Of a stretch of 64,000 nt of DNA, positions 29,838-42,975 are shown piece by piece (the first letter of the stretch is position 1; each line of letters begins with the position of its first letter). The stretch is from Microvirga sp. SRT01. GTDB taxonomy: Bacteria > Pseudomonadota > Alphaproteobacteria > Sphingomonadales > Sphingomonadaceae. The translations under genes were made by a program, and so were the position numbers. The stretch lies in assembly GCA_018139225.1 (NCBI GenBank), contig JAGSNX010000004.1, positions 248,001-312,000 of the forward strand. Reading direction: 5' to 3'. The notes below the pieces were generated by a model. That model saw only the letters and a program-made list of their open reading frames with translations. It did not search any database and was not told the DNA's origin.

Positions 29838-30011
29838 TCAGATTTCTTCCACCGGCGCCTCGGGGCCGTTCTTCAGGATGGAGGCGATCGCATTGCGCGC
29901 GGCGGCCTTGCTCGAATAGCCCTCCGTCCAGAAGATGACTTCGCTGTTGTGCTTGAAGCGCGCGATATACTCGCCGGCCTTGTTCTGCTCGATCGTGAAC
30001 TTGTGGGCCAC
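29838..30011 (-). CDS. YegP-family (DUF1508) small protein
   Basis: A 57-residue protein: VAHKFTIEQNKAGEYIARFK then SEVIFWTEGYSSKAAARNAIASI and the ending GPEAPVEEI. This is the single-repeat form of the DUF1508/YegP alpha-beta fold (E. coli YegP has two repeats). The GTG at 30011 is used, with AGGAG eight bases upstream; the nearby ATG is out of frame. The function of the family is not established. It lies 17 bases downstream of the FAD oxidoreductase on the same strand. Confidence 0.87.
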   Translation of the reverse strand: MAHKFTIEQNKAGEYIARFKHNSEVIFWTEGYSSKAAARNAIASILKNGPEAPVEEI

Positions 30012-30028
30012 GGCATCGTCTCCTGACG

Positions 30029-31099
30029 TCAGCCCGCGGCGAAGCGGGCGGGGGCATAGCGCGCCGGATCGACGCCCGGCACCGCGGGATCATGCCCCAG
30101 CAGCAACGCCGCCGCCAGTGCCGCCGCCGCGGGCGCGGTCTGGATACCGAAGCCGCCCTGTCCCGCACACCAGAAAAAGCCCGGTTCGGCAAAGCCATAG
30201 ACCGGCAGCCGGTCGGGCGCGAAGCTGCGCAGCCCCGCCCAGCGCCGCTCGACCGCGTCGACGTGCCAGTCGACCGCACCCTGGAACCGGTCGATCGCCA
30301 GCGCCACGTCATACTCTTCCGGCGCGGCGTCGCAGGGGTCGGTCGGCGTCTCGTCGTGCGGCGACAGCCACAGCCGCCCGCCCGCCTCCGGCTTGAAGTA
30401 GAAGCGCCCGGCGATGTCCGCGATATGCGGCAGGCCCGCCGGAGGTGGTGGCGAGGTTCGCAGCTGCGCGACGGTCCGGCGATAGGCCCGGATACCAAGC
30501 GGGCGCGCCCCGGACCGCTCCGCGACGACATCCGCCCACGCACCCGCGGCGTTGACCAGCATGGTCGCGGCGAACGTCCCGGCTCGGGTGTCGATCGTCC
30601 AGCGGCCATCGGCCCGCGTCGCAACATCCAGCCCGGCATCGACCACCAGCGTCGCGCCCCCGCGCCGCGCCCGCGACAGACAGTCGGCATGGACCCCGGC
30701 TACGTCGATATACGCACAGCTCGGTTCCATCACGCCCAGCGTCCAGTCGGCGCGCAGGCCGGGGATCAGGCTCGCCGGGTCGACGCGGTGCAGTTCGACA
30801 TCGCTGTCCGCAAACTCCTCCAGGAACGCATCCACCGCGCCCTCGTTCTCGACCCGCCCGATATGAAGCGATCCGAGCGGTTGCAGGAAGGGCGCGAGCC
30901 CCTCGGCGGAGGCGGTGGTCAGCGGCTGGATCAGCGGCCCGCCATAGGTTTCCGACCAGAACGCGGCCGATCGCCCGGTGGCGTGGCGACCGGGCATGTC
31001 CTCCGCCTCCAGCAGCAGCACGCGGGCGTGAGGGGCCAGTTCCGCGGCCAGACTCGCGCCGGCGATCCCCGCGCCGACGATCGCGATGTCGTACGTCAT
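30029..31099 (-). CDS. FAD-dependent amino-acid/glycine oxidase-like oxidoreductase (DAO family)
   Basis: A 356-residue DAO-family flavoprotein. The Rossmann dinucleotide motif is IAIVGAGIAGASLAAEL (about residues 5-21), followed by EAEDMPGRHATGRSAAFWSE, where RSAA is near the flavin ring. The C-terminal FWCAGQGGFGIQTAPAAAALAA is the second FAD-contacting region. No membrane segment is seen. The substrate (a D-amino acid, glycine derivative or 2-hydroxyacid) cannot be told. It overlaps the upstream hydrolase stop by four bases, forming a small operon hydrolase - oxidase - YegP-like. Confidence 0.87.
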   Translation of the reverse strand: MTYDIAIVGAGIAGASLAAELAPHARVLLLEAEDMPGRHATGRSAAFWSETYGGPLIQPLTTASAEGLAPFLQPLGSLHIGRVENEGAVDAFLEEFADSDVELHRVDPASLIPGLRADWTLGVMEPSCAYIDVAGVHADCLSRARRGGATLVVDAGLDVATRADGRWTIDTRAGTFAATMLVNAAGAWADVVAERSGARPLGIRAYRRTVAQLRTSPPPPAGLPHIADIAGRFYFKPEAGGRLWLSPHDETPTDPCDAAPEEYDVALAIDRFQGAVDWHVDAVERRWAGLRSFAPDRLPVYGFAEPGFFWCAGQGGFGIQTAPAAAALAAALLLGHDPAVPGVDPARYAPARFAAG

Positions 31100-32043
31100 C
31101 GGCGCGGCGCCTCCGCATCGAGGAAGCCGTCGATCGCGGCCAGCGCACGCAGTCGCACGGGGTCGGCCTCGCGCAGGATCTCGTGCGCCGACTCGGTTCC
31201 GAACCGCAACACCTCGACGTTCGGCAGCGTCGCCGCGACGCGCAACGCGGCCCGTGCATCGACCAGTTGATCCGCTTCGGCGACCAGCATCTGCACCGGC
31301 GTCGTCACCCCACCCAACCGCGGATCGTTGCGCAGGGCGGCGGTGGCGGCGAACGCCTGCACGATCCAGCCCCAGCTCGGCGGCCCGAGTCGCAACGCCG
31401 GATCACGGTCGAACCACGCCTGCTCGTCCCGAAACCGCGTGAGGTCGTGCGTCAGGCGACGCTGACGATCGCGGATCGCCCGCGGCGTCGTTCCGTGCCG
31501 CCACGCCGCCCGCCGCACATCGCCCCGCGACGCCAGCAGCCGCGCGACTCCGCCGCCGATCCACGCCCCCAGCGGGTTGCGCAGCCCCAGCATCGGCGCG
31601 ACGAGCACTACCGCGTCCGGCGCGATCGCGGCCTCCACCAGCGCTTGCAGCGCCACGAACCCGCCCATCGAATGGCACACCAGCACGTGCGGCCCCTCAC
31701 CCTCCGCCGTCCAGTCGCGCCAGAACGCGGCGAGGTCGGCCACCAATGTCGCGAAATCGTCGAGGTGGCCGATATCGCCCTCGCCCAGCCGACCCGAACC
31801 ACCCTGTCCGCGCCAGTCGAACGCCGTCGTCGCCCAGCCGCGATCGTGGAAATGCTCCAGCGTCTCCAGATATTTCTCGATCATGTCGGCGCGCCCCGCC
31901 TGCAACAGCAGCCGCCCGCGTCCGTGCCCGTCGCGATCGTAGCGTCGGTGCGCCCAGCCATCGGCCGCATGCCACTCGCCTCGCACCGAGTCGGTGGGCC
32001 AGTCCTGCAACGTTGCGGTGGTCGGGGGCGGGTTAACGATCAC
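31096..32043 (-). CDS. Alpha/beta hydrolase, lysophospholipase type
   Basis: A 315-residue serine hydrolase of the monoacylglycerol lipase/lysophospholipase group (Hydrolase_4). The oxyanion region is TTAFDWRGQGGSGR, the nucleophile elbow is VCHSMGGFVAL (Ser about residue 127), the acid lies in VAEADQLVD and the His in TESAHEIL. There is no signal peptide. The substrate is unknown, likely a lysolipid or acylglycerol. The gene is divergent from cpaA and overlaps the DAO gene start by four bases (ATGA). Confidence 0.87.
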   Translation of the reverse strand: MIVNPPPTTATLQDWPTDSVRGEWHAADGWAHRRYDRDGHGRGRLLLQAGRADMIEKYLETLEHFHDRGWATTAFDWRGQGGSGRLGEGDIGHLDDFATLVADLAAFWRDWTAEGEGPHVLVCHSMGGFVALQALVEAAIAPDAVVLVAPMLGLRNPLGAWIGGGVARLLASRGDVRRAAWRHGTTPRAIRDRQRRLTHDLTRFRDEQAWFDRDPALRLGPPSWGWIVQAFAATAALRNDPRLGGVTTPVQMLVAEADQLVDARAALRVAATLPNVEVLRFGTESAHEILREADPVRLRALAAIDGFLDAEAPRR

Positions 32044-32093
32044 CGGCCCCGGTTACGGTTTCCTAAGCCCTGCCGTCTAGGACGGATGCTGTG

Positions 32094-32567
32094 ATGCTAT
32101 GGGATTTCGTCCGGATCGGGCTGGCGTTCGTCGCCGGCGGCCTGCTGTTGTCGGCGGGGATCGAGGATGCTCGCACGCGCGAGATCGCGGACTGGAAAAG
32201 CGTCGCGTTGTGCGCGCTCGCCCCACTCTGGTGGTGGGCCAACGCCGCGACCTTCTGGCCGGGAGCGGCGGTCCAGATCGCCGCCGCCGCGATACTGTTC
32301 GCGATCTTCGCGGCCGCCTTCCACTTCGGCATGATGGGCGGCGGCGACGTGAAATTGATTTCGGCGCTGACGCTGTGGCTGCCTCTCCCCGAGCTGGTGG
32401 GGATGTTGGTCGTGATGTCGCTGGTCGGCGGCGGCGTGACCGTGGCGATGCTGATTGATCGGCGATTCGCATGCTCCGACCGGCCGATCGAGGTGCCGTA
32501 CGGCGTCGCGATCGCCGCCGCAGGCATACTGGCGTTCAGGGAACCCATCCTTAACCATTTTGCCTGA
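32094..32567 (+). CDS. cpaA: Prepilin peptidase CpaA/TadV of the Tad pilus
   Basis: A 157-residue polytopic inner-membrane aspartyl protease that cleaves and matures Flp prepilins. The catalytic Asp residues are in IEDARTREI (about residue 25) and GGGDVKL (about 84), the latter being the diagnostic GxGD-type motif. Four or five hydrophobic helices are visible. ATG 32094 (AGGACGG eight bases or more upstream) or the adjoining GTG 32091 may be used. It starts the cpa/tad run, though a 53-base gap before cpaB could hold a further promoter. Confidence 0.88.
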   Translation: MLWDFVRIGLAFVAGGLLLSAGIEDARTREIADWKSVALCALAPLWWWANAATFWPGAAVQIAAAAILFAIFAAAFHFGMMGGGDVKLISALTLWLPLPELVGMLVVMSLVGGGVTVAMLIDRRFACSDRPIEVPYGVAIAAAGILAFREPILNHFA

Positions 32568-32620
32568 TGCTTAACGCCTGAAGAACCGGATTAAGTCGCG
32601 AAAGGCGCGGGATACGCAAC

Positions 32621-33658
32621 ATGGACAGTCGTAAACTCATCCTGCTGGTCGGCGCGCTGTTCGTCGCCGGTCTGACCGCATTCCTCGCCCGATCGATGAT
32701 GCAGGGCAGCGCCGCGCCGGTCGCGATGGCCGCGCCCGCCGTCGTGATCGACGGACCGGAGGTGCTGGTCGCCACCCGCTCGCTGCCGGTCGGCACGATC
32801 CTCGACGCGACCGCGCTGAAGTATCAGCCCTGGCCCAAGGAACTGGTCGACGGCGCCTATTACCTGCGCTCGCAAAGCGACCTGAAGGCGTTGCAGGGCA
32901 CCGTCGTCCGCAACGCGATCACCGCCGGTCAGCCGGTCACGCAGGGCGCTCTCGTGAAGCCGGGCGACCGGGGCTTCCTCGCCGCCGCGCTCGGACCCGG
33001 CATGCGCGCCGTCACCGTGCCGGTTTCGGCGCAGGCCGCCGTCGCCGGCTTCGTCTTCCCGGGCGACCGCATCGACCTCGTGCTGACGCAGACCGTCGCC
33101 GGTGGTGGCGACGGCCCGCCGCTGAAGGTGTCGGAGACGATCATCCGCAACATGCGCGTGCTGGCGACCGACCAGCGCACCGACAATGTCGTGGGCGAGG
33201 ACGGCAAGACCAAGGTCAGCACGTTCAGCAACGTCACCGTCGAAGCGACGCCCAAGATCGCCGAGCAGATCGCGGTGGCGCAGACGCTGGGTACGCTATC
33301 GCTGTCGCTGCGCAGCCTGGCGGACAATTCCACCGAACTCGAAGAGGCGATCGCATCGGGGGCCGTCACGGTGCCCAACGGCGATCCCAAGGCCGAGAAG
33401 GCGATGATGATGCAGCTGGCGACCCAGCCGGTGTCCGGCAACTCCAGCTTCGCCACCGGCGCCGACGTGTCGCGGTTCCAGCGGCGCAGCGTCCCCGGCA
33501 AGTCGGATCAGGGCGCGGGCGCATCGTCGATGAGCGCCGCCAACCCTGCCACGCCGGCCGGCAATTTCCCGGGCTCCGCGCCCGCAGTCGCCCAGGGGCC
33601 GGTCGTTCGGATCGCCCGTGGCAGCAACGTGACGGCCGTGCCCGTCGGGGGTAAGTGA
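32621..33658 (+). CDS. cpaB: Tad pilus assembly protein CpaB/RcpC
   Basis: A 345-residue periplasmic protein anchored by one N-terminal helix (LILLVGALFVAGLTAFLARS). An SAF domain follows (VLVATRSLPVGTILDATALKY, about residues 43-105) and then the RcpC/CpaB domain (RAVTVPVSAQAAVAGFVFPGDRIDLVLT). The C-terminus is Ala/Pro/Gly-rich. It is thought to assist the secretin in threading the pilus across the periplasm. It is followed two bases later by the secretin gene. Confidence 0.93.
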   Translation: MDSRKLILLVGALFVAGLTAFLARSMMQGSAAPVAMAAPAVVIDGPEVLVATRSLPVGTILDATALKYQPWPKELVDGAYYLRSQSDLKALQGTVVRNAITAGQPVTQGALVKPGDRGFLAAALGPGMRAVTVPVSAQAAVAGFVFPGDRIDLVLTQTVAGGGDGPPLKVSETIIRNMRVLATDQRTDNVVGEDGKTKVSTFSNVTVEATPKIAEQIAVAQTLGTLSLSLRSLADNSTELEEAIASGAVTVPNGDPKAEKAMMMQLATQPVSGNSSFATGADVSRFQRRSVPGKSDQGAGASSMSAANPATPAGNFPGSAPAVAQGPVVRIARGSNVTAVPVGGK

Positions 33659-33659
33659 G

Positions 33660-35270
33660 ATGCGCGTTTCCACGATGACTCTGACGGGGGCGCTCGCCAT
33701 CGCCCTCGCCGGCCCTGCCGCCATCGCCGTTGCCGGCCCCGCCGCCCTCGGCGCACCGGCTCCCGCGCGCGGCAAGCCGAACGCCCGCCCGGCAGTGGTT
33801 CGGCCGGCTGCTCCTGTATCGGTGCCCGCCGCGATCGTGTCGGTGAACACCGGTCGCGGCCAGTTGGTCCGCCTCGCCCAGCCGATGACCGACTTGTTCA
33901 TCGCCGACGACGGGATCGCCGACGTTCAGGTCCGCTCCCCGACGCAGCTCTACATCTTCGGCAAGAAGACCGGCGAGACGACGATCTCCGCCACGTCGAA
34001 GAGCGGCGCCGTCGTCTATGCCGCGACCGTCCGGGTCGGCACGAACCTGAATTCGGTCGGACAGATGCTGTCGCTGGCGATGCCGGAGGCGCAGATCACC
34101 GCCACGCCGATGAACGGCATGGTGCTGCTGACCGGCACCGTCGCTGCGCCGGACGATGCCGCCGAAGCCGAACGACTGGTGCAGGCGTTCGTCGGGGATT
34201 CCACGAAAGTGCTGTCGCGCCTGAAGACCGCGACGCCGCTACAGGTGAACCTGCAAGTGCGCTTCGCGGAAGTCAGCCGCAGCTTCATCAAGAACGTCGG
34301 TGTCCGCCTCAACACCAGCGACCGTGCCGGCAGCGGCTTCCTGTTCGGGTCGAACTCCGGCAATGCCGGCACGATCACCTACGACGCGGCCACGGGTGGG
34401 AAGACGTCGACCTATTCGGTCGGCACCCAGCGCAGCACGCTGGGCATCGCGGGCCGCCTGTTCGGCACCGACATCCTGTCGGCCATCGATCTGGGCGAGA
34501 CGATCGGTCAGGTGACCACCCTGGCCAATCCGAACCTGACTGCGCTGTCGGGGGAGACGGGTACGTTCCTGGCCGGTGGCGAGGTCCCCATCCCGATCGC
34601 GCAGGCGCTGGGCACGATATCGGTCGAGTACAAGCAATACGGCGTCAGCCTGTCCTACACGCCGATCGTGTTGTCGGACGGGCGCATCTCGCTGCGTGTC
34701 CGTCCGGAGGTGTCGCAACTCGACTATTCCAACGCGATCACGATGAACGGCACGCGCGTTCCCGGGCTGACCAGCCGTCGCGCGGAAACGACGGTGGAAC
34801 TCGGTTCCGGACAGAGCGTGATGATCGGCGGACTGCTCCAGAACAGCCACAACAACTCGATCGAAAAGACGCCGTTCCTCGGCGACCTGCCGATTCTCGG
34901 TTCGCTGTTCCGGTCTAACGCCTTCCAGCGCAACGAGACCGAACTGGTCATCATCATCACGCCGTATCTGGTGAAGCCGGTGAACTCCTCATCGGACATC
35001 GCGCTGCCGACCGACGGCTACCGCGCGCCGACCGATGCCGGCCGCATTCTCGGCGGACAGCTCAGCGCACCCTATCTGCCGGGTACCCCGATCGACCGGC
35101 GTCCGGTGCCGACGATGGCACCCCAGACAGACGCCGCACCCGCGATCGGCGCCACCGCAACGGTTCCCGCCGTCCCGGTCCCGCAAGGGCCGGTTCGCGA
35201 AGACCGCGAACGCGCCCTCCCCGCGTCGTCGAAGAAGGGCAGCTCCGTAATGCCCGGCTTCTCCCGCTGA
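33660..35270 (+). CDS. cpaC: Outer-membrane secretin CpaC/RcpA of the Tad pilus
   Basis: A 536-residue secretin with signal peptide (about 1-30) that forms the outer-membrane pilus pore. The N-terminal pilus/secretion domain (VNTGRGQLVRLAQPMTDLFIAD) is about residues 60-125, a BON-like part is about 130-190, and the secretin core (about 195-445) includes VPIPIAQALGTISVEYKQYGVSL and GQSVMIGGLLQNSHNNSIEKTPFLGDLPILGSLF, the family signature. A Pro/Ala-rich tail follows. Its stop overlaps an ATG of the cpaD frame (TGATG). Confidence 0.94.
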   Translation: MRVSTMTLTGALAIALAGPAAIAVAGPAALGAPAPARGKPNARPAVVRPAAPVSVPAAIVSVNTGRGQLVRLAQPMTDLFIADDGIADVQVRSPTQLYIFGKKTGETTISATSKSGAVVYAATVRVGTNLNSVGQMLSLAMPEAQITATPMNGMVLLTGTVAAPDDAAEAERLVQAFVGDSTKVLSRLKTATPLQVNLQVRFAEVSRSFIKNVGVRLNTSDRAGSGFLFGSNSGNAGTITYDAATGGKTSTYSVGTQRSTLGIAGRLFGTDILSAIDLGETIGQVTTLANPNLTALSGETGTFLAGGEVPIPIAQALGTISVEYKQYGVSLSYTPIVLSDGRISLRVRPEVSQLDYSNAITMNGTRVPGLTSRRAETTVELGSGQSVMIGGLLQNSHNNSIEKTPFLGDLPILGSLFRSNAFQRNETELVIIITPYLVKPVNSSSDIALPTDGYRAPTDAGRILGGQLSAPYLPGTPIDRRPVPTMAPQTDAAPAIGATATVPAVPVPQGPVREDRERALPASSKKGSSVMPGFSR

Positions 35271-35287
35271 TGCGCGCCGAAGGAACC

Positions 35288-35926
35288 ATGATGAAGCAGC
35301 CTGTTCTTCTGTCCGCCCTCGTCCTCGCTCCGGCCCTCCTGTTGGGCGCGTGCATGGGCAGCGATGCCCAGCGCCGGGGGATGGAATCGATCCATCAGCC
35401 CGTCGTGCAGCGGTCCGACTATCTGCTGGACCTTCAGCTGGCAGGCGACCGTCTCGCCAGTGGCGAATCGCAGCGTCTGACGGGCTGGCTCGACGGCCTG
35501 CGGGTCGGCTACGGCGATCATGTCGGGCTGGACGATCAGGGCCGCTCGTCGGCGATGGTCCGCGGCCAGGTGTCGGGCACGCTCGCTGCGCGCGGGATGC
35601 TGATCTCGGACCAGATGCCGGTCACCGCCGCGCCGATCGCTCCCGGCACGGTGCGCGTCGTCGTCAGCCGCATGAAGGCGACGGTTCCGGGCTGCCCCGA
35701 CTGGGAGCATCGGCTGGACACCACGTTCGAAGCCGCCACCTCGCCCAATTACGGCTGCGCCATGAACCGTAATCTGGCCGCGATGGTCGCCCGGCCGGAG
35801 GATCTGATCCGCGGCGCGGGTACCGGCGACACCGATCCCACGACCAGTTCGCGCGCGATCAACAGCTATCGCAAGGCAGCGCCCACGGGCGGCGGCGGCA
35901 CCACGGTGAAGTCGGAAGGAAAGTAA
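35288..35926 (+). CDS. cpaD: Tad pilus lipoprotein CpaD
   Basis: A 212-residue outer-membrane lipoprotein with lipobox LLLGACMG (Cys about residue 22 from the chosen start). It matches the CpaD family: YLLDLQLAGDRLASGESQRL and VTAAPIAPGTVRVVVSRMKATVPGCPDW, and FEAATSPNYGCAMNRNLAAMVARPEDL. ATG 35288 is chosen because GAAGGA sits five bases upstream; ATG 35270 overlapping the cpaC stop is the alternative. CpaD helps to localise or assemble the CpaC secretin. Confidence 0.92.
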   Translation: MMKQPVLLSALVLAPALLLGACMGSDAQRRGMESIHQPVVQRSDYLLDLQLAGDRLASGESQRLTGWLDGLRVGYGDHVGLDDQGRSSAMVRGQVSGTLAARGMLISDQMPVTAAPIAPGTVRVVVSRMKATVPGCPDWEHRLDTTFEAATSPNYGCAMNRNLAAMVARPEDLIRGAGTGDTDPTTSSRAINSYRKAAPTGGGGTTVKSEGK

Positions 35927-35927
35927 G

Positions 35928-37223
35928 ATGAACGCTCCCTGGAAGCCCACCGGCGTGGGCACGCGCGATCCCTTCTTCGCCTATGTCTGCGACGACACGA
36001 CCGCCGACTCGCTGCGGCCGATCGTCAGCGAACTGGGCTGGTCGGTGGAGAAAATCCACAAGGGCGGGCTGCGCAACGCGATCCAGTCGCTGTCGGTCTC
36101 CGCCAGCCCGCAGATCCTGTTCGTCGATCTCGCCGAATCGGGCGATCCGCTCAACGACATCAACGCGCTCGCCGAGGTGTGCGAGCCCGGTACGGTCGTC
36201 ATCGCCGCGGGTCAGGTCAACGACGTGCGGCTGTACCGCGACCTGATCGCCAGCGGGATCCAGGATTACCTGCTGAAGCCGCTGCATCCGGACATGATGC
36301 GCGACGCGTTCAGCCACGCCCAGGCGATGCTCAACGCACCCAAGCCCGTCGACGCGGTGGTCGACCGGCCGCATTATTCGGTCGGCATCGTCGGTGCCCG
36401 CGGCGGCGTCGGCGCGTCGATGGTCGCGACCTCGATCGCGTGGCTGCTCGCGGAAAAGGAGGGGCGCACCACGGCGCTGCTCGACCTCGACGTGCATTTC
36501 GGCACCGGCGCGCTCAGCCTTGATCTGGAACCGGGCCGCGGCCTGACGGATGCGATCGACAATCCCAGCCGGATCGACGGGCTGTTCATCGAGCGCGCCA
36601 TGGTGAAGGCGTCGGAGAAGCTGGCGGTGCTGTCCGCCGAAGCGCCGATCAACCAGCCGCTGATGACGGACGGCGCGGCCTTCTTCCAGTTGCAGGAGGA
36701 GATGCGCTCGGCGTTCGAATGCACTGTGGTCGACCTGCCGCGCGGCATGCTGGTCCAGCATCCGCACCTCGTCAGCGACATGCAGGTGATCGTCATCGTC
36801 ACCGATCTGACGCTGGCGGCGGCGCGCGACACGATCCGGCTGCTCTCGTGGTTCAAGACCAACGCCCCGAACACCTCGGTCACCGTGCTCGCCAACCGCG
36901 TCGCGGGGACCGGCCAGCCGGAGATCACGCGCAAGGACTTCGAAACCTCGATCGAGCGCAAGATCGATTATCTCGTGCCCCTCGACATGAAGCTCGCCGC
37001 ACAGGCTGCCAAGCTGGGCAAGCCGGTCGCCGAAGCCGGCAAGAATTCGAAGACCGTCACGCCGATCGGCGATCTGGTCCGCGCGATCACCGCGATCGTG
37101 CCCGATGACGTCAAGGATGCGGGCAAGGGCAAGAAGGGCAAGGGCGACAAGCCGGCCGGCGGATCGTCGCTGCTCGGCGGGCTCAAGGGCCTGATGACCA
37201 AGCGCGGGGCGAAGGCGAAGTAA
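35928..37223 (+). CDS. cpaE: Tad pilus localisation ATPase-like protein CpaE/TadZ
   Basis: A 431-residue protein with an N-terminal receiver-like domain (about 10-125, phospho-site region LFVDLAESG) and a ParA/MinD-type domain. The deviant Walker A reads GARGGVGASMVA (about 148-159), without the usual lysine pair; this RGGVGAS form is familiar in CpaE. The C-terminus is Lys/Gly-rich (GKGKKGKGDKPAGG). CpaE/TadZ places the Tad secretion apparatus at the cell pole. It is followed 25 bases later directly by tadB; the cpaF gene usually found here is missing. Confidence 0.92.
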   Translation: MNAPWKPTGVGTRDPFFAYVCDDTTADSLRPIVSELGWSVEKIHKGGLRNAIQSLSVSASPQILFVDLAESGDPLNDINALAEVCEPGTVVIAAGQVNDVRLYRDLIASGIQDYLLKPLHPDMMRDAFSHAQAMLNAPKPVDAVVDRPHYSVGIVGARGGVGASMVATSIAWLLAEKEGRTTALLDLDVHFGTGALSLDLEPGRGLTDAIDNPSRIDGLFIERAMVKASEKLAVLSAEAPINQPLMTDGAAFFQLQEEMRSAFECTVVDLPRGMLVQHPHLVSDMQVIVIVTDLTLAAARDTIRLLSWFKTNAPNTSVTVLANRVAGTGQPEITRKDFETSIERKIDYLVPLDMKLAAQAAKLGKPVAEAGKNSKTVTPIGDLVRAITAIVPDDVKDAGKGKKGKGDKPAGGSSLLGGLKGLMTKRGAKAK

Positions 37224-37248
37224 GCCGGCAACGGCGGAAGGGCGCGTC

Positions 37249-38220
37249 ATGGACATGATGCCACTAATCATCGTCACGGTCGGCGGTGCCTTGATCCTGG
37301 GGATGATCGCGCTGGCGTTTGCCGGCCCCTCGCCTCAACGAGCGCAGGCGCGCCGCATCGGTGCGCTGCGCGAACGGCACGGCGACTCCGCCGTCGCCGT
37401 CGACGCGAAACTGCGCCGCATCACGAACTCGCGCGACACCAGGATGGACGTCGCGGTCGGCCGCCTGCTCCCCAACCGCGCCGCCCTGGCCAAACGGCTG
37501 GCGATGACGGGCAAGGACTGGACGGTCGGCAATTACGGCATGGCGACCGCCGGCGTCACCGGTGTCGTCGCGCTGCTGCTGCTGCTGAAGGGCGCACCCC
37601 TGCTGCTCGCGCTGTTGCTGGGGCTGGCGATGGGTGCGGGCATCCCGCATTTGGTGGTCGGCAAAGTCATCAAACGCCGCATCGCCAAGTTCACGTCCAA
37701 GTTCCCCGACGCGATCGAACTGCTCGTTCGCGGCCTCCGCTCCGGCCTGCCGATCAGCGAGACGATGGGGGTCGTGGGCGCCGAGGTCGACGGCCCCGTC
37801 GGCGAGGAATTCCGTGCGATCGCCGACAAGATGAAGATCGGGCGGACGATGGACGCGGCGATGCAGGACACCGCCGATCGCCTCGGCACCCCCGAATTCC
37901 AGTTCTTCGTCATCACGATCGCCATCCAGCGCGAAACCGGTGGCAATCTGGCGGAGACGCTCGCGAACCTGGCGGAGGTGCTGCGCAAGCGCAGCCAGAT
38001 GAAGTTGAAGATCCGGGCGATGTCGTCCGAATCCAAGGCGTCCGCCTACATCATCGGGTCGCTGCCGTTCGTCGTCTTCGGCCTGATCTGGACGATCAAC
38101 GATACGTACATGCAGAACTTCTTCGTCGATCAGCGGCTGATCGTGGCGGGGCTCGGCGGCATGATCTGGATGAGCATCGGCGCCTTCATCATGGCCAAGA
38201 TGATCAATTTCGAGATTTAG
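37249..38220 (+). CDS. tadB: Tad pilus inner-membrane platform protein TadB
   Basis: A 323-residue polytopic protein with a T2SSF domain (KFPDAIELLVRGLRSGLPISETM, about residues 143-165, and IQRETGGNLAETLANLAEVLRKR). Helices lie at about 5-25, 95-135, 270-290 and 300-320. TadB and TadC form the membrane platform on which the motor ATPase acts. The start ATG (MDMMPLI) follows cpaE by 25 bases. Good length for the family. Confidence 0.93.
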   Translation: MDMMPLIIVTVGGALILGMIALAFAGPSPQRAQARRIGALRERHGDSAVAVDAKLRRITNSRDTRMDVAVGRLLPNRAALAKRLAMTGKDWTVGNYGMATAGVTGVVALLLLLKGAPLLLALLLGLAMGAGIPHLVVGKVIKRRIAKFTSKFPDAIELLVRGLRSGLPISETMGVVGAEVDGPVGEEFRAIADKMKIGRTMDAAMQDTADRLGTPEFQFFVITIAIQRETGGNLAETLANLAEVLRKRSQMKLKIRAMSSESKASAYIIGSLPFVVFGLIWTINDTYMQNFFVDQRLIVAGLGGMIWMSIGAFIMAKMINFEI

Positions 38221-38227
38221 GACAGCG

Positions 38228-39223
38228 ATGATGACCCCAGCTCATGGCCCAACGCTGCTCGGCATCGACGTCCTGTGGGTCGCGACGTTGCTGTCCGGCG
38301 TCGCCGCCTTCGCGGTCATGGTCGCGATCTACGCCGCGACCAGCGTCAAGGATCCGATGGCGAAGCGCGTCAAGGCGCTGAACGATCGGCGCGAGCAGTT
38401 GAAGGCGGGCATCACCGCCTCGACGAAGCGCCGCGCAAAGCTGGTCCAGCGCAACGACACCGCCGACCGCATGAAGACGATGCTGTCGTCGATGAAGGTG
38501 TTGCAGGACAGCCAGGTCAAGGCGGCGCAACGCAAGCTGTTGCAGGCGGGCATCCGGTCCAAGGAATGGGCGGTCGCGGTCATCTTCGGCCGCATGGTCC
38601 TGCCGATCGTGTTCGGCGGCATGGCGGTCTTCTGGGTATACGGCACCGACGGTTTCGCAGACTGGTCGCCGTTGAAGAAATACGGGCTGGTCGCGGTGAC
38701 CTTCATCCTGTCGTACAAGGCACCCGACATCTTCCTGACCAACAAGATCAAGAAGCGCACCGACCTCATCCGCAAGGGGCTGCCCGACGCGCTCGACCTG
38801 CTGGTGATCTGCGCAGAGGCTGGCCTGACCGTCGATGCAGCGTTCCACCGCGTGGCGCGCGAACTGGGCCGCGCCTATCCCGAACTGGGCGAGGAATTCA
38901 CGCTCACCGCAATCGAGCTCGGCTTCCTGACCGATCGACGTCAGGCGTTCGAGAACCTCGCGATGCGCGTCGATCTGGACGCGGTGAAGGGCGTCACCAC
39001 GACGATGGTCCAGACCGAGAAATACGGCACGCCCCTGGCATCGGCGCTTCGCGTCCTGTCCGCGGAGTTCCGCAACGAACGCATGATGCGCGCCGAGGAA
39101 AAGGCGGCACGGCTGCCGGCGATCATGACGGTGCCGCTGATCCTGTTCATCCTGCCCGTACTGTTCGTCGTCATCCTTGGGCCGGCCGCCTGTTCGATCA
39201 AGGACGCGCTGATGACCGGCTGA
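38228..39223 (+). CDS. tadC: Tad pilus inner-membrane platform protein TadC
   Basis: A 331-residue T2SSF-family membrane protein, partner of TadB. The T2SSF signature is KGLPDALDLLVICAEAGLTVDAAFHRVARELGRAYPELGEE, with VQTEKYGTPLASALRVLSAEFR afterwards. Helices are seen at about 12-35, 112-150 and 298-320. It starts seven bases after tadB and ends the cluster: no tadD, tadE/F or tadG follows; instead hairpin repeats and small unknown genes. Confidence 0.93.
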   Translation: MMTPAHGPTLLGIDVLWVATLLSGVAAFAVMVAIYAATSVKDPMAKRVKALNDRREQLKAGITASTKRRAKLVQRNDTADRMKTMLSSMKVLQDSQVKAAQRKLLQAGIRSKEWAVAVIFGRMVLPIVFGGMAVFWVYGTDGFADWSPLKKYGLVAVTFILSYKAPDIFLTNKIKKRTDLIRKGLPDALDLLVICAEAGLTVDAAFHRVARELGRAYPELGEEFTLTAIELGFLTDRRQAFENLAMRVDLDAVKGVTTTMVQTEKYGTPLASALRVLSAEFRNERMMRAEEKAARLPAIMTVPLILFILPVLFVVILGPAACSIKDALMTG

Positions 39224-39270
39224 CGCCGGCCATCATAGCCTGACGCCTCGGGTTACGTGGGCCAACCGTC

Positions 39271-39295
39271 ACCCCGGCGAGCGCTGGGGTCTTTC
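39271..39295 (+). terminator. Probable terminator of the cpa/tad operon
   Basis: ACCCCGGCG-AG-CGCTGGGGT forms an interrupted stem at 39271-39290, followed by CTTTC. It also resembles the dispersed repeat at 17886. Confidence 0.55.
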
Positions 39296-39326
39296 TGAGG
39301 AGAGAACCGGTGCTCCTCACCACGAG

Positions 39327-39357
39327 CCCCCCTTCCCTACGGTGACGTGAAGGGGGG
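39327..39357. repeat. GC hairpin CCCCCCTTC ... GAAGGGGGG
   Basis: Nine-base perfect arms (39327-39335 and 39349-39357) around a 13-base loop. Together with 39271-39295 this is the only structure in 39224-39528; no gene is seen there. Confidence 0.5.
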
Positions 39358-39528
39358 CGGTGGTGCCTGAAACCTCGGTTTTGTTGGCACCATCCTATCC
39401 AGAGATGCTGTCAGCGTAACGCGAGCTGCTCCCCACCGGATGCCTGTCGCGCTATGAGGATGGCAGCCCCGCCCTCGCCACCCGCCGGAACGATCTCACC
39501 TGCAACGAACAGGTATCGGATGCGTGGA

Positions 39529-39762
39529 TCAGTCCGTGCCTTGCTTTCGTGCGCCATCGATCATCTTCTGCGCGATCGTGCGTACGCCGGCGTCGTTCTT
39601 GGTGGCGTCACTGGCAGGATCGCCCAGATGGTCGAGGCTGTTCTCGAGAAAATCGAGCAGTCCGGGGTGTTGCGCCTCGACATACTCCATCACCTTGAAC
39701 AGCAGGTGCTCGGTCGCGATTTCGCGTTGACGGGTCTGCACGGCGTCGGCGTCGTTCATCAT
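39529..39762 (-). CDS. Small hypothetical protein, 77 aa
   Basis: A 77-residue soluble, acidic, helical protein (TEHLLFKVMEYVEAQHPGLLDFLENSLDHLGD) that I do not recognise. AGGAGA lies just upstream of a double ATG (39762/39759); the longer frame to 39795 lacks a ribosome site. No neighbours on the same strand. It could be a stress-associated small protein but nothing in the sequence shows this. Confidence 0.62.
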   Translation of the reverse strand: MMNDADAVQTRQREIATEHLLFKVMEYVEAQHPGLLDFLENSLDHLGDPASDATKNDAGVRTIAQKMIDGARKQGTD

Positions 39763-39898
39763 TCTCTCCTGACTGGAGGCTCCATAACGCGCCATCGACG
39801 CGTGGGTCCCGGCCGCCGTGCAACCCGGTGCGTGCGATCGTCGCGTCGACGACGCTTCGCGGATGCGACCAACGCGGGCTCCGCATCGTTATCCGCCT

Positions 39899-40084
39899 AT
39901 GGACAACGACCCCCTCGCCGCCGCGCTCGAACATGCCCAGGCATTCGCGCGATCCTACAGCCCCGGCGATCTGATCGACGAGGACAGCGGCTTCACAGTC
40001 GACAACCTTCTTGCGCTGATCGCGGCGGCAACGCCGCCGACGCCGGAAGACAAGATCACCGACGAGCTGGGCGATCTTGCCTGA
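39899..40084 (+). CDS. Small hypothetical protein, 61 aa
   Basis: A 61-residue acidic protein (DNDPLAAALEHAQAFARSYSPGDLIDEDSGFTVDNLLALI) with no signal peptide or recognised domain. The composition and predicted helices are protein-like, but the ribosome site is weak. It is divergent from the 77-residue gene at 39762 across 136 bases. Confidence 0.5.
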   Translation: MDNDPLAAALEHAQAFARSYSPGDLIDEDSGFTVDNLLALIAAATPPTPEDKITDELGDLA

Positions 40085-40214
40085 CCGGAACGCGTGACTG
40101 CGCCCGCCATGATCACGCGTCCCCGCGACTTCCCTTGATCGACATCATAGCGAAAGCCCATTTGCTTCGGTGGCGTTGTCTCCCCTGCCGCGTTGTAATG
40201 ATCGGAGAACCGCC

Positions 40215-40406
40215 ATGAACCAGCCCGTATATGATGAGCCGTCCGATGTAGATGCCGTCGACGGCGTGGTACTCGTCAGCGGACCGGGCGGGGTGGTAGC
40301 CTCGTTTACGCCGGATGCCGCAGCCGACACCTCCGATCGATTGCTTCAGGCTGCGGCGCAGGCGGAGGGCCAGACGATCGAGATGCGGTCGAAGTCTGGC
40401 CACTGA
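40215..40406 (+). CDS. Small hypothetical protein, 63 aa
   Basis: A 63-residue protein (VDAVDGVVLVSGPGGVVASFTPDAAADTSDRLLQAAAQAEG) with GGAGAA well placed before the ATG at 40215. The alternation of short strands and a helix looks like a small globular fold. Not recognised. It ends just before a strong hairpin terminator. Confidence 0.6.
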   Translation: MNQPVYDEPSDVDAVDGVVLVSGPGGVVASFTPDAAADTSDRLLQAAAQAEGQTIEMRSKSGH

Positions 40407-40439
40407 CGGCGTGCAGGCCAACGGCCGGATTGCAAGAAA

Positions 40440-40472
40440 GCCGCCGACCATCATGCGTGGTCGGCGGCTTCG
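40440..40472. terminator. Bidirectional hairpin terminator
   Basis: GCCGCCGACCA (40440-40450) pairs perfectly with TGGTCGGCGGC (40458-40468) around a seven-base loop, between convergent genes ending at 40406 and 40496. TTCG follows on the plus strand and TTTCTTGC on the minus strand. Confidence 0.75.
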
Positions 40473-40495
40473 TGTATCCCGGACGACGGAGTCGG

Positions 40496-41143
40496 TCAGG
40501 CGAAGCTGACGGTCGTCCTGACCGGGCGACGACGGCGCAGGGCGCCACCCGTTGCACCGACGCCTGCGATCATCAGCGCCCAGGACGCGGGCTCGGGCAC
40601 GGCCCCTGCGGACAGAACGACATTGTCGAGGGCGAACTGCGCAAACTCGGGTCCGCCGGTGATCGTCAGGGACGAGAGATTGACGAAGTCGTTAAGGGCG
40701 AAGGTAGAGAATGTTTCAGCCGCCTGCGGGTCGGCGAAGATCGTGGCGGTGATGACGGCGCCAGCCTTCACCCCGGTCACCGTCAGGGTCAGGGGATTGC
40801 CCGACCCGGTAAACGTCTGCGCCGCATCGAGCGAGACCAACGAAAACAGCCCCCCGTTCACGCCGAAGAACGATACGCTGGTTTCGTTCATGCCGTAATA
40901 GGCTGTCGTCCCATTTGAAGGACAGCTTGGATTGCACATTCCGAGGTGTTTCGAGGGATCGTTCAGCAGATACATCCCGAAGATGCTTGTAGGGACGATC
41001 TGCACCTGAAAGCCGTCTTCATTGAACTTGTACTTTTGAGATCCGAAACCATCGAGGGCTTGTGTATTGAAGTCGATCGTTGCTGCCTGAACACTTGTCG
41101 CTGAGAAAGCGGCCGCAATGGCCAGCATTGAAAATCGTATCAT
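40496..41143 (-). CDS. PEPxxWA-CTERM sorting-signal protein, 215 aa
   Basis: A secreted protein with signal peptide (MIRFSMLAIAAAFSATSVQA) and the proteobacterial sorting tail VPEPASWALMIAGVGATGG followed by LRRRR. This tail is the PEP-CTERM variant recognised by exosortase, so the protein is expected to be processed and held at or released from the outer surface. The middle is a Thr/Ser/Gly-rich beta-sandwich-like region (TFTGSGNPLTLTVTGVKAGAVITATIF) with one Cys pair (MCNPSCPS). AAGGAT before ATG 41143 sets the start. No exosortase gene is in the window. Confidence 0.87.
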   Translation of the reverse strand: MIRFSMLAIAAAFSATSVQAATIDFNTQALDGFGSQKYKFNEDGFQVQIVPTSIFGMYLLNDPSKHLGMCNPSCPSNGTTAYYGMNETSVSFFGVNGGLFSLVSLDAAQTFTGSGNPLTLTVTGVKAGAVITATIFADPQAAETFSTFALNDFVNLSSLTITGGPEFAQFALDNVVLSAGAVPEPASWALMIAGVGATGGALRRRRPVRTTVSFA

Positions 41144-41664
41144 CGGCGATCCTTTTTGCGCGATTGATGGACTTGCTGGTTGCAGCTCTGACGTCCTGCC
41201 GGCGTTCTTGTGCACCATGCTGCTTCGACTGGATCGTCCAACGCCAACGCTTCTGCGAGGACGGTCGAAACATGCGGCTAGGCTGCGCCGCTATAGCTCG
41301 CGGCAATGCTCCGTCGTGTCAATATGGTTAATAACTATCTATTATTGCATCGATTTTAGTGTTTCGCGGGGAGCATCGGATCGTTAACCTCCACCCTCTT
41401 CCGGGAAGCGCGGATCATCCGCGACGGCTCGTCGCGATCGCCCTGTTCGCATCGTATTCGCTGTTCGCTCGGAGCTCGCGAGCCGTCCGGTTCGCGGAGA
41501 CTGCACTGGCGCCATCGACGTCCCGCAAGATCCGCGCGCGCCGACCCACTGCCGCGTCAAGGCTCTGGCCTTCGCCGATGAAGGCTCATGGAACGCCCGC
41601 GACACGCGGCGCGCCCGGCGGGACGCCGTCCTGACCTCGCGCGCAGCGTTTACGGCTCGCCCGA
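41144..41664. other. Intergenic region, no gene seen
   Basis: About 520 bases between two minus-strand genes. The part 41315-41365 is markedly AT-rich (GGTTAATAACTATCTATTAT) and may hold the promoter of the PEPxxWA gene. The GC-rich rest has overlapping short frames on both strands, none with a ribosome site or recognisable protein. Confidence 0.5.
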
Positions 41665-42975
41665 TCAGCGCGACGCTTGAGCCGCCGGCCCCTGCAACCC
41701 CGGCGGCGGCGTGGCCTTCGCGTCCGGGTCGACGCCTCTCCGCTCGTCGAGCGAACGCATGATCGGCGTCACCGTCAGCCCGTGCAGCAGGATGGACAGC
41801 AGCACTACCAGCCCGACGATTCCCCACAGGCGTTCCGGATCGGCCACGTCCATATGGTTGATGCCGTACGCCAGATAGTAGATCGACCCGACGCCGCGGA
41901 TGCCGAAGAACGCCAGCGTCATCTTCTCACCCCGATCCGCGTGGTGGCCGAGCAGACCCAGCCAGCCCGTGACCGGCCGAACCACCAGAAGGATGAGGAG
42001 CGCGACGCCTGCATCCCTCCACGTCACCGGTGCCAGCAGACCGCTGACCAGCGCTCCGCCAAACAGGATCAGCAGCACCATCATCGCGAGCCGTTCGATC
42101 TGCTCGGTGATCGCATGCATGTCCGCCTGGAAGTCGTGCTCGCGGTGCGTATGACGGACTGTCAGCGCGGTGACGAAAACCGCCAGGAACCCGTACACGT
42201 GCACGATCTCGGTCAGACCGTACGACACGAATGTTGCCGACAGGGCGATCAGACCGTCGCCCGTCCGCGCCAGTTTCGTCTTCGCCGGGATGTGGAACGT
42301 CAGCCAGCCGAATATCCTTCCGACGATCCAGCCTCCGGCGATCCCGCCGACGATCTCCCACAGCACCCGGTATGTCAGCCACTCGGTCAGCCACGGCTTG
42401 CCGGCGGGTACTGCGACCGCCAGCAGGATGGCGAGATGCACGAACGGGAAGGCTGCGCCGTCATTCAGCCCAGCCTCCGAGGTCAGCCCGAAGCGCACCT
42501 CGTCCTCGTCCCCCGTTTTCGGGGGGCCGACCTGCACGTCGGCGGCCAGGACGGGGTCGGTCGGGGCGAGGCTGGCGGCGATCAGCAACGCCACCGCCCA
42601 CGGCAGGCCGAGCGCCCACCCCGTCAGGAGAGTGATCGCCAGAATACCCAGCGGCATCGTGATCGCGATCAGTCGCCAGGTGATCGACCAGCGTCGCCAG
42701 CCGAACACGCGATCGATCTTCAGGCCTGCGCCCATCAGCGCGATGATGACGACGAACTCGGCAAACCGCTCGGTTACATCCGGATAGAGCATCGGTAGCG
42801 GACGCAACGTAACCTGCGGCAGCAGGAACAGGCCCGCACCGATGCCGATGCACACGATCGGCAGTGACAGCGGCAGGCGCTTCAACGCCAGTGGCAGCCA
42901 CGCCACCAGCGCGATGAGCAGACCGGCACCGGTCATGACAAGAATATAGGGATCGGGAAAAACGCTGGCTGGCAT
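41665..42975 (-). CDS. CPA1-family Na+(K+)/H+ antiporter
   Basis: A 436-residue inner-membrane cation/proton antiporter with about 12-13 helices. Family landmarks are the unwound-helix text SLAPTDPVLAADVQVGPP (about 132-150) and the ion-binding SEAGLNDGAAFPFVHLAI (about 165-182), where the ND pair marks electroneutral CPA1 exchangers. The C-terminal cytoplasmic tail is short (about 30 residues, RRGVDPDAKATPPPGLQ), unlike NhaP2 types with a regulatory domain. It serves pH and sodium homeostasis. It stands alone on the minus strand. Confidence 0.92.
   Translation of the reverse strand: MPASVFPDPYILVMTGAGLLIALVAWLPLALKRLPLSLPIVCIGIGAGLFLLPQVTLRPLPMLYPDVTERFAEFVVIIALMGAGLKIDRVFGWRRWSITWRLIAITMPLGILAITLLTGWALGLPWAVALLIAASLAPTDPVLAADVQVGPPKTGDEDEVRFGLTSEAGLNDGAAFPFVHLAILLAVAVPAGKPWLTEWLTYRVLWEIVGGIAGGWIVGRIFGWLTFHIPAKTKLARTGDGLIALSATFVSYGLTEIVHVYGFLAVFVTALTVRHTHREHDFQADMHAITEQIERLAMMVLLILFGGALVSGLLAPVTWRDAGVALLILLVVRPVTGWLGLLGHHADRGEKMTLAFFGIRGVGSIYYLAYGINHMDVADPERLWGIVGLVVLLSILLHGLTVTPIMRSLDERRGVDPDAKATPPPGLQGPAAQASR

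Follow-up and report, generated by a model that had tools for sequence, protein, structure and literature searches.

The window analysed here is a stretch of 64,000 nucleotides (C4:248001-312000) from the genome of Microvirga sp. SRT01, a member of the Sphingomonadaceae whose assembly comprises 4.03 Mb in 9 contigs and is 100% complete. Its subject is a Tad/Cpa pilus cluster of seven intact open reading frames (ORFs) on the plus strand between 32091 and 39223, in the order cpaA-B-C-D-E-tadB-tadC, with no gene for the motor ATPase CpaF. The cluster consists of the following features.

32091 to 32567, plus strand: cpaA/tadV, prepilin peptidase of 158 amino acids (PF01478, Peptidase_A24, 49.6 bits, cut-off 26.5), with a GTG start and an ATG at 32094
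32621 to 33658, plus strand: cpaB/rcpC (TIGR03177, 195.7 bits, above cut-off; RcpC, PF16976)
33660 to 35270, plus strand: cpaC/rcpA, secretin (PF00263, 153.8 bits; PF13629, T2SS-T3SS_pil_N, 67.4 bits)
35270 to 35926, plus strand: cpaD, lipoprotein (PF09476, 150.6 bits; TIGR02522, 73.6 bits, below cut-off)
35928 to 37223, plus strand: cpaE/tadZ, ParA/MinD-like ATPase (weak ParA/MinD matches, below the curated cut-offs)
37224 to 37248, plus strand: cpaE-tadB junction of 25 bp, the site of cpaF in other alphaproteobacteria
37249 to 38220, plus strand: tadB, inner-membrane platform (PF00482, T2SSF, 89.1 bits)
38228 to 39223, plus strand: tadC, inner-membrane platform (PF00482, T2SSF, 67.8 bits)

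The ORF coordinates bear out a preliminary description of the window, in which cpaE was followed after 25 bases by tadB without cpaF. Its statement that Flp pilin, tadE and tadG genes are absent nearby agreed with whole-genome profile searches, which at E 0.001 gave no match on contig C4 for T2SSE (PF00437), Flp (PF04964), TadE (PF07811) or TadG-like (PF13400) domains; TadD was not searched for.

The motor and the pilins, which the same description allowed, as one of several possibilities, to be encoded elsewhere, were indeed found on other contigs. The genome contains one intact CpaF-type ATPase of 512 amino acids, encoded at C6:180510-182048 on the minus strand, in the middle of a contig of 244055 bp. 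Its best NCBIfam match was TIGR03819 (338.6 bits, under the cut-off of 373.15), and it scored 468.7 and 462.9 bits against the solved CpaF chains 9e24 and 8rkd. The protein retains GGTGSGKTT, EDAAEL and GEIRG, which we take to be the motor motifs, and is 97% identical to CpaF of Sphingomonas sp. Leaf343, with the next named matches also from Sphingomonas, which points to a member of that genus or a near relative as the source of the window. It was the sole TadA/CpaF-type ATPase found by the PF00437 search, the three other matches being GspE (C7), VirB11 (C1) and an XrtA/PEP-CTERM-type ATPase below cut-off (C7). Three Flp pilin genes, two of them exceeding the Pfam cut-off, lie at C1:296.3-297.1 kb, and TadE pairs with TadG-like proteins form two clusters at C1:89.6-90.8 kb and C5:295.6-298.3 kb.

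The T2SSF domains of the genome were confined to GspF, which contains two (479.5 bits, above cut-off), and to TadB and TadC, which contain one each, and therefore no other platform is in sight for the CpaF of C6. The two findings named beforehand as contrary to the preliminary description, a cpaF at the junction and a complete second cluster, were both absent, the latter because there is no second T2SSF platform pair. It is hardly credible that the platform in the window is driven instead by GspE of the type II secretion system on C7. Although GspE is the top-scoring T2SSE protein of the genome (471.3 bits), it reaches 629.9 bits for TIGR02533, at the cut-off of 630.25, and is accompanied by its own GspD secretin and GspF, while a CpaF-type motor is present and tracks CpaE through the family.

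The last point emerged from 119 genomes of the family, which were searched with CpaF, CpaE and TadB; an orphan cpaF was defined as one of at least 71% identity located at least 3 kb from any cpaE match. Relatives of the CpaE of the window were found at E 1e-20 in 107 of the 119 genomes, and cpaE adjoins tadB across the family. The comparison of the junction with related species, as proposed in the preliminary description, revealed the arrangement of orphan cpaF and CpaE without a junction cpaF in 93 of the 119 genomes, with a distance of 9-218 bp between the CpaE and TadB matches in the 91 of them where both were found. The orphan and a junction cpaF occurred together in four genomes (G005, G040, G056 and G085), a junction cpaF alone, beside cpaE, in nine, and neither orphan nor CpaE in 11; G113 has CpaE at a contig end and no CpaF. 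Among the 98 orphans, that of G034 is cut by a contig end, that of G040 matches from residue 65, and that of G059 is in two frames. An extra, more divergent CpaF (45-52%) was present in 17 of the 93 orphan-only genomes, and in G077 and G086, the two whose loci were inspected, it has its own cpaE on one side and its own tadB on the other. A deletion in the assembly at the junction was considered and rejected, since cpaF lies mid-contig on C6 and the same junction recurs in these 93 genomes.

CpaE was present in 97 of the 98 orphan-bearing genomes and in 10 of the 21 without an orphan (p 4e-9, kinship not corrected). Among the 107 genomes with CpaE, the orphan was found in 93 of the 94 without a junction cpaF versus 4 of the 13 with one (p 2e-9), and the same comparison restricted to CpaE of at least 50% identity gave 93/93 versus 4/8 (p 2e-5). 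Of 101 genomes with both cpaE and Flp among the matches listed, 3 (G013, G030 and G113) had the two within 20 kb of each other. For TadG-like proteins a sample of 59 genomes was drawn; 50 of them had both these and cpaE, at most 20 kb apart in 2 of the 50 and in 0 of the 45 that carry the orphan. The loci of G013 and G030 (L096 and L097) carry a junction cpaF, Flp and a TadG-like gene within about 5 kb of a divergent cpaE, and look like separately acquired single-locus systems. Another Tad cluster (L098, G007:C1:2795001-2808000) has several genes split between frames, which are attributed to sequence errors or decay given the quality of the genome (86% complete, 7% contaminated).

The upstream regions were inspected for TTAA-N7-TTAA and for TTAACCAT, which we assume to be the full and half sites of CtrA. 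The full site, with 8 of 8 positions, gave no general signal, being present upstream of 0/29 cpaF, 0/17 cpaA and 2/21 flp genes, one of the two being that of the source genome. The half site (at least 7 of 8 positions) was found upstream of cpaF in 12/29, cpaA in 6/17 and flp in 8/21, and was rarer in the comparison sets (cpaE 1/18, tadB 1/17, other upstream regions 27/196). This enrichment of CtrA-like half sites is only suggestive, because the sequences compared share ancestry and the choice of test followed inspection of the data. Further information came from Sphingopyxis granuli TFA, for which the available part of an RNA-seq account gives cpaABCDEtadBC (1907-1901), Flp (3632), tadGE1E2 (0765-0767) and cpaF (3775) under separate gene numbers, all repressed anaerobically, with ctrA repressed in the same condition (PMC6472365).

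The co-occurrence of the orphan with CpaE, its compensation for the missing junction copy and this shared repression tie the orphan to the dispersed cluster. They also bear on the view that the cluster is what remains of a Tad system in decay, without a motor, and that the CpaF of C6 serves something else. The absence of motor and pilin at the locus would fit such a remnant, and the preliminary description had allowed for a non-functional machine, but the seven genes are intact, their arrangement is kept in most of the sampled family genomes, the orphan lacks a CpaE in just 1 of 98 genomes, GspF is the only other platform found in the genome, and the dispersed parts are co-repressed in the portion of the Sphingopyxis data available (PMC6472365). 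We regard a remnant as very improbable, and non-functionality found no support.

The cluster of the window and the CpaF of C6 very probably belong to one dispersed Tad pilus, in which an orphan paralogue became the sole motor after loss of the junction copy. The window would supply the secretion and platform half of this type IVc pilus, and the hexamer of CpaF would dock on the platform formed by TadB and TadC and power the assembly of the C1-encoded Flp pilin through the secretin CpaC; minor pilins of the TadE/TadG type would come from C1 and/or C5. CpaF is described, in the available parts of two accounts, as the ATPase by which Tad pili are both assembled and disassembled, or extended and retracted (PMC12019362, PMC11300603). 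As to the order of events, a second cpaF with a locus of its own would have existed early in the family beside the usual one between cpaE and tadB, and most lineages, the source genome included, would then have lost the junction copy and kept the orphan as the only motor of the cluster.

A search of the class at E 1e-60 gave matches in 59 of 142 genomes, and the 30 best were taken as loci; 28 of these loci come from outside the family. Among those 28, cpaE, cpaF and tadB are contiguous in 27, and therefore this order is likely ancestral; the remaining locus (L131) shows cpaF only. In a CpaF tree of 75 rows, for which the tool warned of long branches, 36 orphans formed one clade (100/100) separate from the junction copies, and 7 of the 9 junction copies of the family formed a clade of their own (100/99), with those of G013 and G030 among the class rows. 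As the orphans make up a single long-stemmed clade apart from the junction copies, the original motor probably gave way to a paralogue. The earlier suggestion that the machine uses another ATPase holds only insofar as this CpaF paralogue diverged long ago; the motor is still an ATPase of the TadA/CpaF type with conserved motor motifs.

In a tree of CpaE and TadB (56 rows), 41 orphan-only rows formed a clade (100/100), with the four both-copy genomes outside it, together with three of the four junction-only genomes; the fourth, G013, fell with the outgroup. The orphan-only genome G099, with a short cpaE-tadB junction, grouped with the both-copy genome G005 of the same genus, and the junction cpaF would therefore have been lost at least twice on this tree if the ancestor had both copies. 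No significant remnant of cpaF was detected in the junction of G099 by blastn against G005. Searching with the junction CpaF of G005 by tblastn at E 0.1 gave no remnant in 42 cpaE-tadB loci (41 relatives and that of the source genome) or in positions 30001-42000 of the window, and the repeat with controls hit only the three control loci. Within the family the split is both long-standing and widespread.

Another history, in which the junction cpaF merely transposed to a new site without a second copy and the both-copy genomes later reacquired one, appears unlikely. The single clade of the 36 orphans is compatible with it, and a clade joining orphan and junction copies was not rejected (p-AU 0.45), but the both-copy genomes are among the early branches of the CpaE and TadB tree and seven of the nine junction copies of the family form their own clade, so that coexistence followed by loss is the simpler fit.

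Several observations weigh against the reading of one dispersed pilus with a replaced motor. The link between the orphan and TadB/TadC is drawn from gene distribution and shared repression, and since four genomes contain both copies, the orphan may originally have served a different role. The stem of the orphan clade is long, 2.62 changes per column, which could mean a changed function, and 37 of the 72 inner branches of the CpaF tree are open; the joint clade mentioned above, which was not rejected, also bears on the origin of the orphan. Five of the nine junction-only genomes (G013, G030, G063, G072 and G101) have a CpaE of less than 40% identity and may carry other Tad types, and G070, an assembly of about 200 contigs, carries the orphan and gave no match for CpaE. 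The proposed history also needs the orphan to have been lost or missed in G052 (97% complete), G012 (91%) and G022 (67%), and its order of events was read from a tree of Tad genes, not of species.

The position of the orphan was often related to the ATP synthase genes. In 51 of 98 genomes it is found on the strand of atpD and downstream of that gene, at most 20 kb away (at most 2 kb in 24 of these); 19 of the remaining orphans are further off on the same contig, 24 are on different contigs, and 3 genomes have no AtpD match. The orphan of the source genome is 11.8 kb from atpD, on its other side and on the opposite strand. Among the 80 closest named loci, mostly of Sphingomonas, ATP synthase genes were within about 6 kb in 63 (35 on the same strand, 28 inverted) and lacking in 17, and none of the 80 had a cpaE or tadB match. 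Of the four both-copy genomes, G005 has the orphan 192 kb from atpD and the other three have it on another contig, with no ATP synthase genes in the stretches taken around it; the neighbourhood therefore probably arose after the paralogue itself. In three of these four genomes the next gene after the orphan is a small DUF6812-like one (L086:7002-7256, L088:7548-7865 and L090:7584-7829), with one of the three exceeding the Pfam cut-off. We put forward only tentatively, as rather doubtful in its entirety, that the diverged paralogue took over in most of the family, displaced the original copy in a conserved operon and settled past the end of the ATP synthase genes, to which its expression is possibly tied, with the genomes carrying both motors as surviving intermediates.

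Apart from the pilus genes, the ORF at 40496-41218 on the minus strand of the window encodes VPEPASWALMIAGVGATGGALRRRR near its C-terminus, presumably a PEP-CTERM-like sorting signal. Contig C7 encodes an XrtA-associated tyrosine kinase as well as the XrtA/PEP-CTERM ATPase, both below their cut-offs.

The machine itself is ordinary and its layout is unusual, with the motor relocated, not missing. Annotation based on operons will label such clusters motorless. According to the available part of a survey, Tad systems are almost exclusively encoded at a single locus and scattered ones are very rare (PMC6668835); the layout is of interest because here scattered systems prevail among the sampled genomes of a large family, which conflicts with that generalisation. 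No description of a family-wide split was found in the listed titles or beginnings of abstracts, subscription journals lying outside the literature search. Since both-copy, junction-only and orphan-only genomes can be compared, the family lends itself well to studying how one motor replaces another in a multiprotein machine. The account of Sphingopyxis granuli TFA, in which cpaABCDEtadBC likewise lacks cpaF, does not comment, in its available part, on the split, on how old it is or on where cpaF lies (PMC6472365). With the single-locus Tad/Cpa systems of alphaproteobacteria (type IVc, Flp), the present system shares the prepilin peptidase, CpaB, the secretin, CpaD, CpaE, the TadB/TadC pair, CpaF, Flp and TadE/TadG. 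It differs from them in that cpaF, the pilins and TadE/TadG are at separate loci, the parts being spread over four contigs where a single locus is usual, though not required, for Tad, and in that its motor comes from a distinct clade of CpaF.

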